Source: Hysterium pulicare CBS 123377 (Eukaryota; Ascomycota; Dothideomycetes; Hysteriales; Hysteriaceae). Taken from it: 50,853 bases of DNA. Below the pieces are notes generated by a model. It worked only from the letters and a program-made list of their open reading frames with translations. It was not told where the DNA came from and made no database searches. Made by a program: the position numbers and the translations under genes. Of this stretch, positions 32,949 to 38,805 are shown piece by piece. Positions within the stretch are counted from its first letter, which is position 1, and each line of letters opens with the position of its first letter. Where the stretch lies: positions 1 through 50,853 of the forward strand of contig AJFK01000178.1 in assembly GCA_000467715.1 (NCBI GenBank), given 5' to 3'.

Positions 32949-34068
32949 ATGGGTTCTAGCTCCAAGAAGAAGAAGGAGAAGAAGAAAGATTTCCAAGTAT
33001 GCAAATCCAGCGCCCAGACCCAGGTTCATACTGATCAAGGTGCTGTAGAAAACCAAACTGAGAGTTGGTAAAACAAAGCCGAAGGCAAATAACCTTACGG
33101 ATACTAGTTTCAAAGCCAAATGTAAAAAGCGTCTCTTTGCTCCCCTATTTATATCTAATTTTTGACTAGCTATTGTCCTAAACCAACAATCTCTCTCCAC
33201 GAATGCGCCCTCAGCTGCATCACAGTTTTCACATCATTTGTCGTTGCTGTCTCACAAATCCGACACCCAAAGACGCGATTCTCTAGCTTATCTAACATCA
33301 AGCATCTTGAATACACCCTCAAACTCGCCATTGCCCCAACCAGTATCGGTCATTGTGCCCGCAGTACAGCGTTTGATTCTTGATGGATCAAACGGAGTGC
33401 GAACTCAACTTCTAAAGCTCCTACAGAGTTTGCCGGGCACCGAAATCGCGAGCCATGTCGACCAGCTTTTGCTTTACACTCGAGCTGGCATAACTCACCT
33501 AGCTGCCGATATCCGCATTTTCGCACTCGATGTGCTCGAATGGCTACTGCAAGTCGCTGGAGATGAAGTCGTTAGCTGTGCTGGCGGATGGGTGAAAACG
33601 CTTAAATGCTTTCTGGGACTTTTGAGCTGGCAACCGGATGAATCTACGAAGTGGTCCGCTTCAAGAGTATCTATCGGTAAAGCTGCCGATAGCAAGGTTC
33701 AAGTGAAACAGATGAGTGCGCTCGTTGTGTTCTTGAAAGCGGGACTTTTGCCACCCTCGCAAAATGATCAAGTCCAACTCTCAGAATCATCATGTTTCCC
33801 GCTTTGGCATCTGGAACACCACGTGTTGCCGCAGAGATCGCATGCTTACGCACACCTCAACCTGTTCGGAGCTCCAAGAGATGAGGAGACGGAAATGTAT
33901 GAGGATAGAGAGGATAGGCAAAGGGTTTTCCATGAAAAGGCGGAAGCGGCTATATTAGCTGGTCTTGAGCAAGCGAAGAAAGGAGGAGGCGAGCTGGGGC
34001 GTGCGGCTGCTCAGCTTCGGAAGGTCGTAGTAGACGGCATGGCGGATTTCCGCGGGGAGGAAATCTAA
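32949..34068 (+). CDS. ipi1: Pre-rRNA-processing protein Ipi1 (Rix1 complex)
   Basis: Three exons: 32949-32996, 33049-33121 and 33170-34068; introns are 52 and 48 nt, and the product is 339 residues. The start MGSSSKKKKEKKKDFQ is a basic leader, followed by LRVGKTKPKANNLTDTSFKAKSIVLNQQSL, of which TDTSFKAKSIVLNQQ-type residues are the hallmark of Ipi1/TEX10 N-termini. An alpha-helical repeat region (IVPAVQRLILDGSNGVRTQLLKLLQSL, then ADIRIFALDVLEWLL) follows. Ipi1 works with Rix1 and Ipi3 in the nucleolus and nucleoplasm to remodel pre-60S particles and process ITS2. Length fits ascomycete Ipi1. The first exon is very short and was recovered by splice consensus. The gene is divergent from the roadblock gene. 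Confidence 0.92.
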
Positions 34069-34752: not shown

Positions 34753-37276
34753 ATGGATTCTGAAGTAAGCGCCTACTTTTCCTTGCTTTTACTTTCACTT
34801 TTGACAATTCTCCAATCCAATCTATTTAGACTTCTGACTTTCATTAGTCACGATTGCCAGTGAAGACAGATGCGAAGGATGAAATATTCGATGATGATGA
34901 GCCCTATGAAAGCGGCGAACCAGAAGAAGACGGAAGTCTTCAATTCGAAACGAATACGAAGCTCTCTGGTGCTTCAGTCATTAAACGCCACTTGGGCCAA
35001 TACATGAGTGAGTCTTTATACCAAGTATAATCTCCCACACTAATGCTATGAGGCAAGATTCTCTGAATGATGGATCAATTGACCTGAACCCAAACTATCA
35101 AAGAGAAGTTGTATGGCCAGGTGAGAGCATCTTCCCAACCTTATATCCTCAAGCCTAATGGTACCTCTCACAGCATACAAAATGACCAATTTGGTCAACT
35201 CCGTTATGGGTAAGTAGATCTCTTGTTCCCGTTACATTAGCATTAGAGCGGAATACTAACAAAGCACTAGAAAACTTCTACATTCCTCCAATCATCTTCA
35301 ACGTTACCCAAGCACCAAATGGGAATGGCTCAGGCATGTACAGACGCACATGTGTCGATGGAAAGCAGAGATTATCGTCCGTAAAAGCATTCATCGAGGG
35401 CAAGATCCCATGCAATGACAAACATGGCAAAAAATGGTATGAACAAGGGCCTCCTTTGCTTTTCCCGACTAACCCTCGCAGGTACTTTTGCGACGCATCT
35501 GGCAATACTGACCCGAGCAGATCCAAGCGTCTGATACTTCCTAAGTCGATCCGAGATGACTTCCTCGCCAATAAAGAGTTCGTCGCGTGGGAGTTCCACG
35601 GCTTATCCCCCGAACAAGAGGAAGACCTCTTCGCTCGAGTCCAAATGGGAGTGCCCTTGACCCCGGCCGAAAAGATGAAAGCATCAACAGGCCCCTGGCA
35701 AGATTTCGCCAAAATGTTTGAGGACGACTTCCCTTCCGTTCTCAAGACATTGCGCACTAATCAACGGTCGGCTGGCTTCCGGATTATCCTCTCTTGCTTC
35801 AGCCAGATCATTGAGTCGCTTTTTCCTTCGATGGCCAACGGCAAGCCTGCCTTCAAAGTTTCGGCAAAGGCATTGCCGTTATTTCTACAGAACAGGACGG
35901 CTCTGGATGATGCGATGAAGTCTCATCTTGCTGCAGTATTTACGAGGTTTAAGGAGCTCATTGAGGAAGACCCGCAGACGTTCAGGAACAACGGATATCG
36001 CAACGTTCAAACTTTTGCTCCTGTCGAATTGGTTGGGGTTGCCGTCTTGATCTCTCAATATGGAGAAAGTCGAAACAACAAGATGTTGCTGGGGGATATC
36101 CGTGCCATGAGGCTTGCACTCCGCCAGCACTTCATCGACTTAAGATTGAACTCACAGGTCTGGATCGCCATCTGGGAATTCATCGATTCTCTTGAACAAT
36201 ACCGAGGAGCGGTAGATGGAAGTACTTCCAAATCCAAAGGAACAAAACGTGATCCTCCTCCAATAGCCTCTGGGTCGATTTCAATGGAAATCGAGAGGCT
36301 CAAAGCCAGAATTGCGGAACAAAGGGGAACGGCAACGACAGCGAAGGCAAGGTCAAGCCCTCTTAAAAAGAATACTGGTAATAAGGCACCAAAAACACGT
36401 CCACCTCCCCACGCTCAAGCGCACACGGCTCCGCTCCAGCGTCCTAGTGACACCCCAATCTATGCTTGGGATCATTCATCATCAAGAACTAGCGAATCAA
36501 TTATTGTGGATGCTGAAACCGAGTCGGCGAACGAAACATCCCCAGAGAGGCCACTCGGCAAGAAACTCGTCTCTCGTCGCTCGCCATCTGTCGACTCCGT
36601 GTTCGAAGAAGAGCAAACTCAAGTCTCCCAAACGCCACCAATCCGAGAACAAAGACGTACACCGCCGACATACAGCGACAGGTCGAATGGAGGCAATACA
36701 GGCCTAGTTCAAACTACCTACATAAACGAACAAACCGCGAACAGAGCACCAGTCGCCATGATGGCACCAGTAGCATTAATGGCACCTAGAATAATGCCGG
36801 TAGCCCAAATGGGCCCCAGATCTAGGCCGTCCAATCCCTCAGAACATACCTCATCCCACATCCCAGCCATCGTCTCACCAACAGTAATCCAAACCGAAGA
36901 ACAGCTCCAAGCAACCCTCAATGCTACCCGCTCCAGCTCCCCGCCAGACCTGAATACACCACCCGCTGACCCCCAACCCAATGTCCTACAAGAACATCCC
37001 ACTGTTTCTAAACCCAGTCCATCACCAGCGCTTCTCAGACCCCCACCTTCGAATCCCACCGACGACGATATCGAGGACCCGGAAGTCGCTCGCCAGATAC
37101 TGCTCTCAAGCTTCCGGTCTACAAAAGCAGCTACTCATGGCCCCGGTACTGATACCAGTGCTGGAGCTAGTGAAGGTATTGGTGTTGGGAGTGGGCGTGA
37201 GCTTACTGTACGGGGGAATAAGAGGGCGAGGAGTGAGAGTGGGAGTTCTAGATCGACTTCTAAGAGGAGGGGTTAG
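34753..37276 (+). CDS. DUF262 (GmrSD N-terminal / ParB-like) protein with disordered tail
   Basis: Six exons: 34753-34764 (12 nt), 34848-35007, 35058-35120, 35174-35209, 35271-35436 and 35482-37276, giving 743 residues. Introns are 83, 50, 53, 61 and 45 nt. The last intron is in frame and stop-free; it is called from its GTATGA donor, GACTAAC branch, CGCAG acceptor and the restored KKWYFCD motif. Residues ~45-330 form a DUF262 domain: YQREVVW at 71-77, FYIPPIIFNV at 93-102, the signature VDGKQRL at 119-125 (DGQQR in bacteria), and later ARVQMGVPLTPAEKM. The remaining ~400 residues are Pro/Ser/Thr-rich and disordered, with a Met/Ala/Pro repeat (APVAMMAPVALMAPR) and a basic end SKRRG that may be a nuclear signal. 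The bacterial domain acts in DNA-modification-dependent defence as an NTP-binding/hydrolysing module. The fungal role is unknown. Confidence 0.87.
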
Positions 37277-37658: not shown

Positions 37659-38805
37659 CTAAACCCCATGCCTCCCAAACTCTTCCTCCGTATACTCCCA
37701 AAGCTTCTTCGCCAGCCCCTGATCCCTGGAATACCCACTCCCCCCATGCAACTTCCCGATCGGAACATAATACGCTCCATTCTTAACCTCACTCTTTGGC
37801 GCCGTAGCCGCCCACACCTGATTTTTCGCCCCCTCGAACGTATTCGGCAGCACACCCGGTAAAATCGGCGCCAGAAACTTGAAGATCCGCGTCGCGAATC
37901 TCAAGAACCAGTTCGTCTGATATGGGGTATACAGCTCCGTGAGGATAACGCCTGGATGCACGGCTACCGAGGTGATGTTGGGATAGCGCGCGACGAGTTC
38001 CTTGGTAAACAGGATATTCGACAATTTCGATTGTCCGTAGCGCTGCCACGTCGATTTCGCCTCCAGCGCTTTCTGGTCGAAGATCACACCGCCGCTCGGA
38101 GCCATCTGATGGCCCATACTCGTGACATTGACGATGCGCACATCTGCACCCGGCTCCTCGGCCGTCTTCAGCAAGACCGGCATGAGTAGTTTCGTGAGCA
38201 GCGCATGGCCCATGTGGTTCGTCCCGAACTGGTTCTCGTATCCTTCTTTCGTGAGACTGTAGGGTGTTGCCATGACGCCGGCATTGTTTATCAGGAGGTC
38301 GAGGCGCTGGGATTGCGATTTGAATGTGGAAGCGGCGGACTGGATCGAGGAGAAGGATTGCAAGTCTAGGGGGAGATGCTCGACTATGGCGTTGGGGACG
38401 CTCTTGTGGATCTCGGCGATTGCGCTTTCGGCTTTCGAGGCTGTGCGGGCTGCGAGGTAGATTTTGGAGGGGTTGTGAGGGGCGAGTTGGAGGATTGTTG
38501 AGAGGCCTAGGCCTGTGTTGCCTGTAATTCAACGAGATTAGCTTGTGGTCCTCTAAGAAGAAATGGGGAATGATGTTCGTGTATAGAAATCAATTGCGGC
38601 GAGGAATGTCAGTAAGCTGCAGTTCTTCGGGGTTGGCATCCTTTTGGCCACTGGTGAGGAGGTAGAGGTAGAGATAGATGCAGCTGAAGTTGAAAATGAT
38701 AATGATATAGATCGCAACAAACATACCTCCTGTAACCAATACGACCTTCCCACTCAAATCTGGGATGTCCTTCGTAGGGTCAAACTTTACTCCTCCGCCA
38801 AACAT
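37659..38805 (-). CDS. Short-chain dehydrogenase/reductase (retinol-dehydrogenase-like)
   Basis: Two exons, 38805-38727 and 38521-37659, joined over a 205-nt intron (GTATGT donor, GCTAATC branch, TTACAG acceptor), give 313 residues. The classical SDR Rossmann signature T25-G-G-N-T-G-L-G32 is split by the intron. The adenine-site NNAG lies at ~105-108, the catalytic Ser in VNVTSMG at ~161, and Tyr188/Lys192 in YGQSKLSN. The substrate loop after SVAVHPGVILTELY is typical of the retinol dehydrogenase/WWOX-like group that reduces or oxidises lipophilic alcohols with NADP(H). The ATG at 38805 is used because the longer upstream frame would start at GTG. There is no clear signal or membrane segment at the N-terminus. 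Substrate cannot be deduced. Confidence 0.88.

Follow-up and report, generated by a model that had tools for sequence, protein, structure and literature searches.

A nuclear gene of the fungus Hysterium pulicare encodes a DUF262 protein that resembles prokaryotic defence proteins

The ascomycete Hysterium pulicare encodes, in a 50,853-nucleotide stretch of contig AJFK01000178.1 that we analysed as a whole (the window), a protein with a DUF262 domain that appears, by alignment, to keep the active-site pattern of its family. This pattern speaks to the prokaryotic rows with which the protein was compared, not to selection in fungi. With somewhat less than even confidence, we tentatively favour the reading that this ParB/Srx-like DUF262 protein has no nuclease activity and acts in the nucleus as a sensor or regulator that is switched by NTP; the uncertainty of this reading lies in the sensor-switch mechanism. 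In the main rival, the ParB/Srx-like fold has been repurposed as a scaffold for protein interaction or regulation that does not sense DNA modification and perhaps does not hydrolyse NTP; we regard this as a substantial possibility, although a minority one.

Gene model and DUF262 domain

Rebuilt from the sequence, the gene spans positions 34753-37276 of the forward strand, as a preliminary description of this DNA had proposed, and gives one open protein of 758 residues. The splice model, made from the sequence alone, has five coding exons rather than the six that were described earlier, separated by four GT-AG introns of 83, 50, 53 and 61 nt, one of which has an AAG acceptor. Coding exon 1 (34753..34764, forward strand as for all five), which encodes MDSE, is supported by its frame and splice sites (donor GTAAGC) and, being short, is the least certain. 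Exon 2 (34848..35007) carries the acidic N-terminus and the stretch preceding the DUF262 match, in a frame that is open from a TTAG acceptor to a GTGAGT donor. Exon 3 (35058..35120), behind the AAG acceptor, encodes NPNYQREVVW (residues 68-77), and exon 4 (35174..35209) encodes AYKMTNLVNSVM, which contains K81; its in-frame join gives one unbroken match to PF03235. Exon 5 (35271..37276), delimited by its open frame, Pfam and the composition of the tail, holds the remaining part of the domain with VDGKQR (119-124) and FARVQMG (211-217), the region to about residue 405, a low-complexity tail and the stop codon. The motifs YQREVVW (71-77) and VDGKQRL (119-125) that had been read from the DNA, together with ARVQMGVPLTPAEKM from residue 212, are all present in the spliced protein.

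The gene lies between an upstream frame for Ipi1, of the Rix1 complex (33238..34068, forward strand; PF12333, E = 4.2e-28), and a downstream short-chain dehydrogenase (SDR) frame (37659..38363, reverse strand; PF00106, E = 2.9e-12), both of which we treat as context only. Other neighbouring genes in the window are a GDI-domain gene, an FMN-dependent dehydrogenase and a C2H2 zinc finger. Because of the introns and the flanking genes on the same contig, contamination is excluded: the DUF262 gene is a nuclear gene, as had been claimed. The ease with which bacterial and phage relatives are found might suggest a bacterial contaminant, or a recently transferred gene in decay, rather than a working fungal gene. 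This reading is made extremely improbable by the four GT-AG introns and intact 758-codon frame, by the Ipi1 and SDR frames and by low identity to bacterial relatives (30% over approximately 178 residues for the protein of bacterial locus L013, and at most 40% over fewer than 90 residues). The composition argues in the same direction, as GC and GC3 (both 0.50) are within or close to the range of six neighbouring frames (0.50-0.56 and 0.44-0.72, respectively).

The spliced protein matches Pfam family PF03235 (GmrSD_N, DUF262) over residues 60-228 with 53.8 bits (E = 3.5e-14), compared with a curated cut-off of 33.2 bits, and covers profile positions 8-196 of 199. The earlier DUF262 assignment is thereby confirmed, and we consider the identity of the domain to be near certain. 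Exon 5 alone scores 21.1 bits, which is under the cut-off, so the spliced model matters for the domain score; on the unspliced genome the profile reaches 32.9 bits, or 37.8 bits with in-frame neighbours. A single DUF262 place was found in the 37.2-Mb assembly (596 contigs), whether the query was PF03235, the protein itself or the bacterial L013 protein. No family was matched in an NCBIfam search with the fungal core.

The I/V-D-G-x-Q-R motif of the PF03235 family is present as VDGKQR, and the QR motif as P69-N-Y71-Q72-R73. In place of the FxxxN motif, which is named for GmrS (PMC4619093), the fungal protein has FARVQ (FxxxQ). Glutamine at this position also occurs in 7 of the 58 other rows of our larger alignment (L004, L013, L014, L016, L057, L112 and L113); to judge from these rows, the motif appears to vary within the DUF262 family, and the glutamine variant is not decisive.

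A structure model was computed from 16 sequences with the read-through frame of the window, in which two introns are read as codons and exon 4 is out of frame; for this input the mean pLDDT was 52 and the pTM 0.47. Higher values, of 66-86, are reached in nine ten-residue blocks (71-110 and 161-210 in the numbering of the model). These blocks form two strands, the helix that follows DGKQR and then a further strand and helices; we take this order to be compatible with a ParB/Srx-like domain. The model thus lends weak support to a predicted ParB/Srx-like fold of the fungal protein.

Residues aligned with SspE, DndI and BrxU

When the fungal sequence alone was compared with the PDB, we found no DUF262 chain and chance matches only. 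A family profile, made from 15 bacterial or viral relatives and the read-through window frame and dominated by the relatives, matched DndI (9jfl, E = 1.3e-8), an 818-residue DUF262 protein (E = 9.7e-6), BrxU (7p9k, E = 1.9e-5) and, weakly, SspE (6jiv, E = 0.011). In the alignment, fungal Y71-Q72-R73, encoded by exon 3, falls on Y30-Q31-R32 of SspE and Y25-Q26-R27 of DndI, and D120-G-K-Q-R124 falls on D96-R100 of SspE and D83-R87 of DndI. By ungapped count from W77, K81 falls on K40 of SspE.

Mutants are available for several of these positions. In SspE, the response to phosphorothioate DNA is lost in Y30A and Q31A, and NTP hydrolysis is lost in R100A (PMC9646914); in DndI, Y25A loses the phosphorothioate response and R87A loses NTP hydrolysis (PMC11662687). 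The contact between SspE D96 and GTP comes from a docking model and not from a mutant (PMC9646914). The preliminary description had suggested an NTPase that perhaps senses DNA; this suggestion gains from the alignment, in which residues for NTP hydrolysis and for sensing are retained. A pure scaffold would not need the positions that were mutated in SspE and DndI, and their retention therefore argues against the scaffold.

P69, Q72, R73, W77, D120, G121, Q123 and R124 are identical in 42 of 42 distinct prokaryotic and phage rows. Position 71 is aromatic in every one of these rows (F in 23, Y in 14 and W in 5), and the residue aligned with K81 is lysine in 12 of them. In the 58-row set, Q72, R73, D120, G121, Q123 and R124 match in all rows, W77 in 57 and P69 in 56, with an aromatic residue at position 71 in 57. 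The rows were collected by similarity, and the invariance is therefore partly a selection of rows.

The fungal protein resembles SspE and DndI in the aligned Y-Q-R sensor and D-G-x-Q-R residues, but differs in that these proteins have a C-terminal HNH nickase part, to which their nicking activity is assigned (PMC9646914), and none was detected in the fungal protein. The SspE models of PADLOC did not match the fungal core at E <= 0.1. The likeness to GmrSD and BrxU lies in the N-terminal DUF262 domain; these proteins carry DUF1524, whereas Pfam found none in the fungal protein, as the preliminary description had also held, and GmrS has FxxxN where the fungal protein has FxxxQ. DUF1524 was also not found in a six-frame search of the 37.2-Mb genome, which an intron-split domain could escape and for which the control was positive in 6 of 14 genomes. 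Membership of GmrSD was rejected, because DUF1524 is absent from the protein and was not found in the genome.

The same observations bear on a Type IV-like restriction or genome-defence nuclease, in which DUF262, alone or with an unrecognised partner, would cut modified or foreign DNA. GmrS has been proposed to have both nuclease and NTPase activity (PMC4619093), and the H. pulicare genome has matches to cytosine-5 DNA methyltransferases, including one with a BAH domain, which would suit such an enzyme. With DUF1524 neither fused nor found elsewhere in the six-frame search of the genome, and with the nicking of SspE and DndI assigned to the HNH part, we consider a fungal nuclease to be very unlikely.

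Stand-alone relatives and placement of the fungal protein

Relatives were collected from 398 genomes of one bacterial phylum, 38 of which had a match, from 385 genomes of one class in that phylum, 14 of which had a match at E <= 1e-12, and from plasmid, phage and viral collections; a scan of genome contigs gave at least five loci, and other phyla were hardly sampled. DUF262 relatives occur in 96 phage and 627 plasmid records. Forty of the 44 prokaryotic or phage relative frames are 330-450 aa in length (the others have 163, 184, 257 and 576 aa), and the two relatives examined by Pfam (L018 and L020) have no second Pfam domain, including DUF1524. Absence of DUF1524 is also known for the DUF262 proteins of PD-T4-2, Menshen and Dazbog (PMC10952713).

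In PADLOC, the fungal core scores highest with NsnA of Menshen (49.4 bits, E = 9.7e-14), in a match limited to profile positions 51-131 of 385 and core residues 8-95, and next highest with PD-T4-2_A (34 bits, E = 4e-9). These matches bear out the proposed link to bacterial defence modules. The fused proteins GmrSD, SspE and BrxU, which the preliminary description had named as kin, do share the domain, but stand-alone DUF262 proteins compare better, given the NsnA match and the lengths of the relative frames. Most of the closest prokaryotic kin in our sample are DUF262 proteins that have the size of a stand-alone protein. NsnA is likewise a DUF262 protein of 350-400 aa without a nuclease; however, its gene adjoins NsnB (DUF3696), whereas the flanks of the fungal gene are Ipi1 and SDR. 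We do not claim membership of Menshen for the fungal protein, as the NsnA match is partial and the six-frame search for DUF3696, although without a match in the fungal genome, had a silent control (positive in 0 genomes).

The genes beside these relatives vary. In four alphaproteobacterial loci (L013, L014, L016 and L004, the last on a Sinorhizobium plasmid), the DUF262 gene is followed by a SIR2 gene. The two-gene units lie at L013:3950-5886, L014:3944-5868, L016:3797-5865 and L004:3941-5843. Neighbours score as SspA (with DndA close behind) and SspB in L014, as SspC and SspD in L016 and as PbeC/DndD in L013; neither of the two neighbour genes compared in L004 matched any model. Three of the four units thus lie near phosphorothioation genes of the Ssp/Pbe type. 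The DUF262-SIR2 unit is possibly a phosphorothioate-sensing NADase defence pair; our literature searches returned no paper with a title on this pair.

Four other loci (L005, L006, L008 and L012) combine DUF262 with a DUF3696/NsnB-type gene, and phmmer identified similar frames in eight more. An FRG gene is directly upstream of DUF262 in L127:5375-7251, L129:5157-6976 and L130:5219-7023, and in L129 a cytosine-5 methyltransferase and a Vsr endonuclease gene are close to this pair. The downstream gene in L010 had no family match, and no effector-type partner was recognised in L125 or L126. Because the relatives adjoin differing effector-type genes, the stand-alone DUF262 branch looks like a portable sensor that is coupled to varied outputs.

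Some further loci are described here for their own sake. On a Rhizobium plasmid (L009:2929-6492), DUF262 is followed by a RelA/SpoT-like gene, and the unit adjoins a gene annotated as an N-6 DNA methylase. A short T4-like protein of phage RB49 (RB49ORF187c, L011:1926-2444), annotated as hypothetical, matches the N-terminal DUF262 motifs; our guess is that this phage copy of a defence sensor domain could be a decoy. One viral-contig DUF262 frame (L048:646-1725) has a C-terminal end that is HNH-like by eye, unlike the other viral-contig relatives.

Within this set, the fungal protein has features of the SIR2-linked group. The motif RxQMG is a marker for this group that was defined in our analysis and is not a published one: Q215 and M216 of the fungal protein are common to the four SIR2-linked rows only (4 of 42), and in the 58-row set Q also occurs in L057, L112 and L113, with M in the four SIR2-linked rows only. 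The proteins of this group have approximately 350 aa, with no other Pfam domain seen. They differ from the fungal protein in that tryptophan replaces the sensor tyrosine and the disordered tail is absent. Their loci differ as well, as a SIR2 gene is beside DUF262, whereas the six-frame search of the fungal genome gave no SIR2_2 match (the search could miss an intron-split domain, and its control was positive in 2 of 14 genomes).

These comparisons raise the possibility that the fungal DUF262 protein controls a toxic effector encoded by a separate gene, in a two-component module like those of Menshen or SIR2. The match to NsnA, over core residues 8-95 only, and the RxQMG motif point towards this arrangement; the lack of a SIR2_2 match in the six-frame search of the genome and of an effector-type gene on either flank points away from it, and we regard it as improbable. 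The same flanking genes, Ipi1 and SDR, are in keeping with the scaffold.

Three trees were used to place the fungal protein, all made without fused GmrSD, BrxU or SspE; the C-terminal end of L048 was trimmed from two of the alignments. In the whole-protein tree of 40 rows the fungal protein falls in a clade of 8 rows (support 82/67), and in the domain tree of 40 rows it is sister to the SIR2-linked group (91/75). In the 59-row tree it falls in the Q-type clade (89/74), where the sister relation to the SIR2-linked group is weak (64/61). With 3.48, 2.26 and 2.31 changes per column in the respective trees, the fungal branch is very long next to those of the sampled relatives, as might be expected of a fold repurposed as a scaffold. 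NsnA stands apart from the fungal protein in the tree. Forcing the fungal protein into one clade with the NsnA group lowers the likelihood by 13.6 log units (p-AU 0.104), and into one with the FRG-linked group by 0.73 log units (p-AU 0.442); neither arrangement is rejected. We claim no donor lineage, because of the long branch, the NsnA and FRG joins that are not rejected, the sampling of one phylum and the fused enzymes that stand outside the trees.

A viral origin was considered and rejected after six scans of viral contigs. No relative came from the single-protein scan or from the two-row alignment scan. Three further scans, for which bacterial alignments were used, led to 10 loci; the best locus scored 34.1 bits to the fungal core, compared with 48.6 bits for the best bacterial frame. 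Among the 48 stretches that a pattern scan returned, no frame of 50 aa or more matched at E <= 1.

Remainder of the protein and possible function

For the region 229-405 no relative was found, as the profile-profile alignments stop where DUF262 is nearly complete (core residues 185-198). Beyond this region, the low-complexity tail (residues 406-758) is rich in Ser, Pro, Thr, Ala and Arg, lacks Cys and is almost without aromatic residues. By a charge and hydropathy rule, 6 of 8 forty-residue windows over residues 401-720 scored as disordered, compared with 1 of 9 over residues 41-400. The disordered tail of approximately 400 residues noted in the preliminary description is thus 353 residues long, with its disorder upheld for most of the windows scored. 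A long tail of low complexity would also fit the scaffold. The NLS-like end that had been attributed to the tail fares less well: a single K-[KR]-x-[KR] match is found, at 741-744, and such a match occurs in 419 of 2,000 shuffles of the tail. As this is near chance, the nuclear location of the protein is a guess.

For the reading that we favour, an NTP-switched sensor or regulator, a mechanism can be outlined from the aligned residues. NTP would be bound and hydrolysed at D120-G-K-Q-R124, an aromatic patch around Y71-Q72 would touch DNA or another ligand beside the NTP pocket, and contact with the ligand would alter both hydrolysis and conformation. As no nuclease domain is detectable in the protein and the genome search gave no SIR2_2 partner, the output would pass through the rest of the protein: partner proteins may be recruited or released by the region to approximately residue 405 and the disordered tail, probably in the nucleus. 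Sensing of modified DNA by the fungal protein is possible.

A more specific proposal is that fungi took over a bacterial stand-alone DUF262 sensor of modified DNA of the phosphorothioate type, retained the NTP switch and the sensor patch, lost the toxic partner and connected the protein through its disordered tail to nuclear chromatin. It would then read the state of DNA, for example 5-methylcytosine from the methyltransferases of the fungus itself, or foreign or damaged DNA. We consider this proposal unlikely, although still credible.

Genes annotated as 'GmrSD restriction endonucleases N-terminal domain' are common in fungal genomes. Fungal DUF262 genes have already been annotated in print, and the existence of such a gene is not new. 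Three eukaryotes are among 613 sequenced organisms with GmrSD homologues (PMC4619093), and a marker of shiitake (Lentinula edodes) is annotated as 'Protein of unknown function DUF262' (PMC5406856); the likeness of these entries to the H. pulicare protein is by annotation only, and they are listed there without a function. Our literature search, which took in few subscription papers and no bioRxiv preprints, found no functional study of any fungal DUF262 protein.

Should the H. pulicare protein act as its bacterial relatives do, an NTP-driven sensor of DNA state that is related to prokaryotic antiviral proteins would be present in a eukaryotic nucleus, and the retained catalytic and sensor residues offer exact mutants for testing. 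Even if its role is an ordinary one, the protein speaks against a literal reading of the family name 'restriction endonuclease', because it has no detectable cutting domain and most of its closest kin in our sample have the size of stand-alone proteins.

Matches to cytosine-5 DNA methyltransferases lie at three places in the H. pulicare genome and, because of them, methylated DNA is plausible in this fungus. Two of the methyltransferase frames, L059:1-3159 (the frame with the BAH domain, which also has DUF7893) and L058:7-2205, bear on any role of the DUF262 protein in reading modified DNA.
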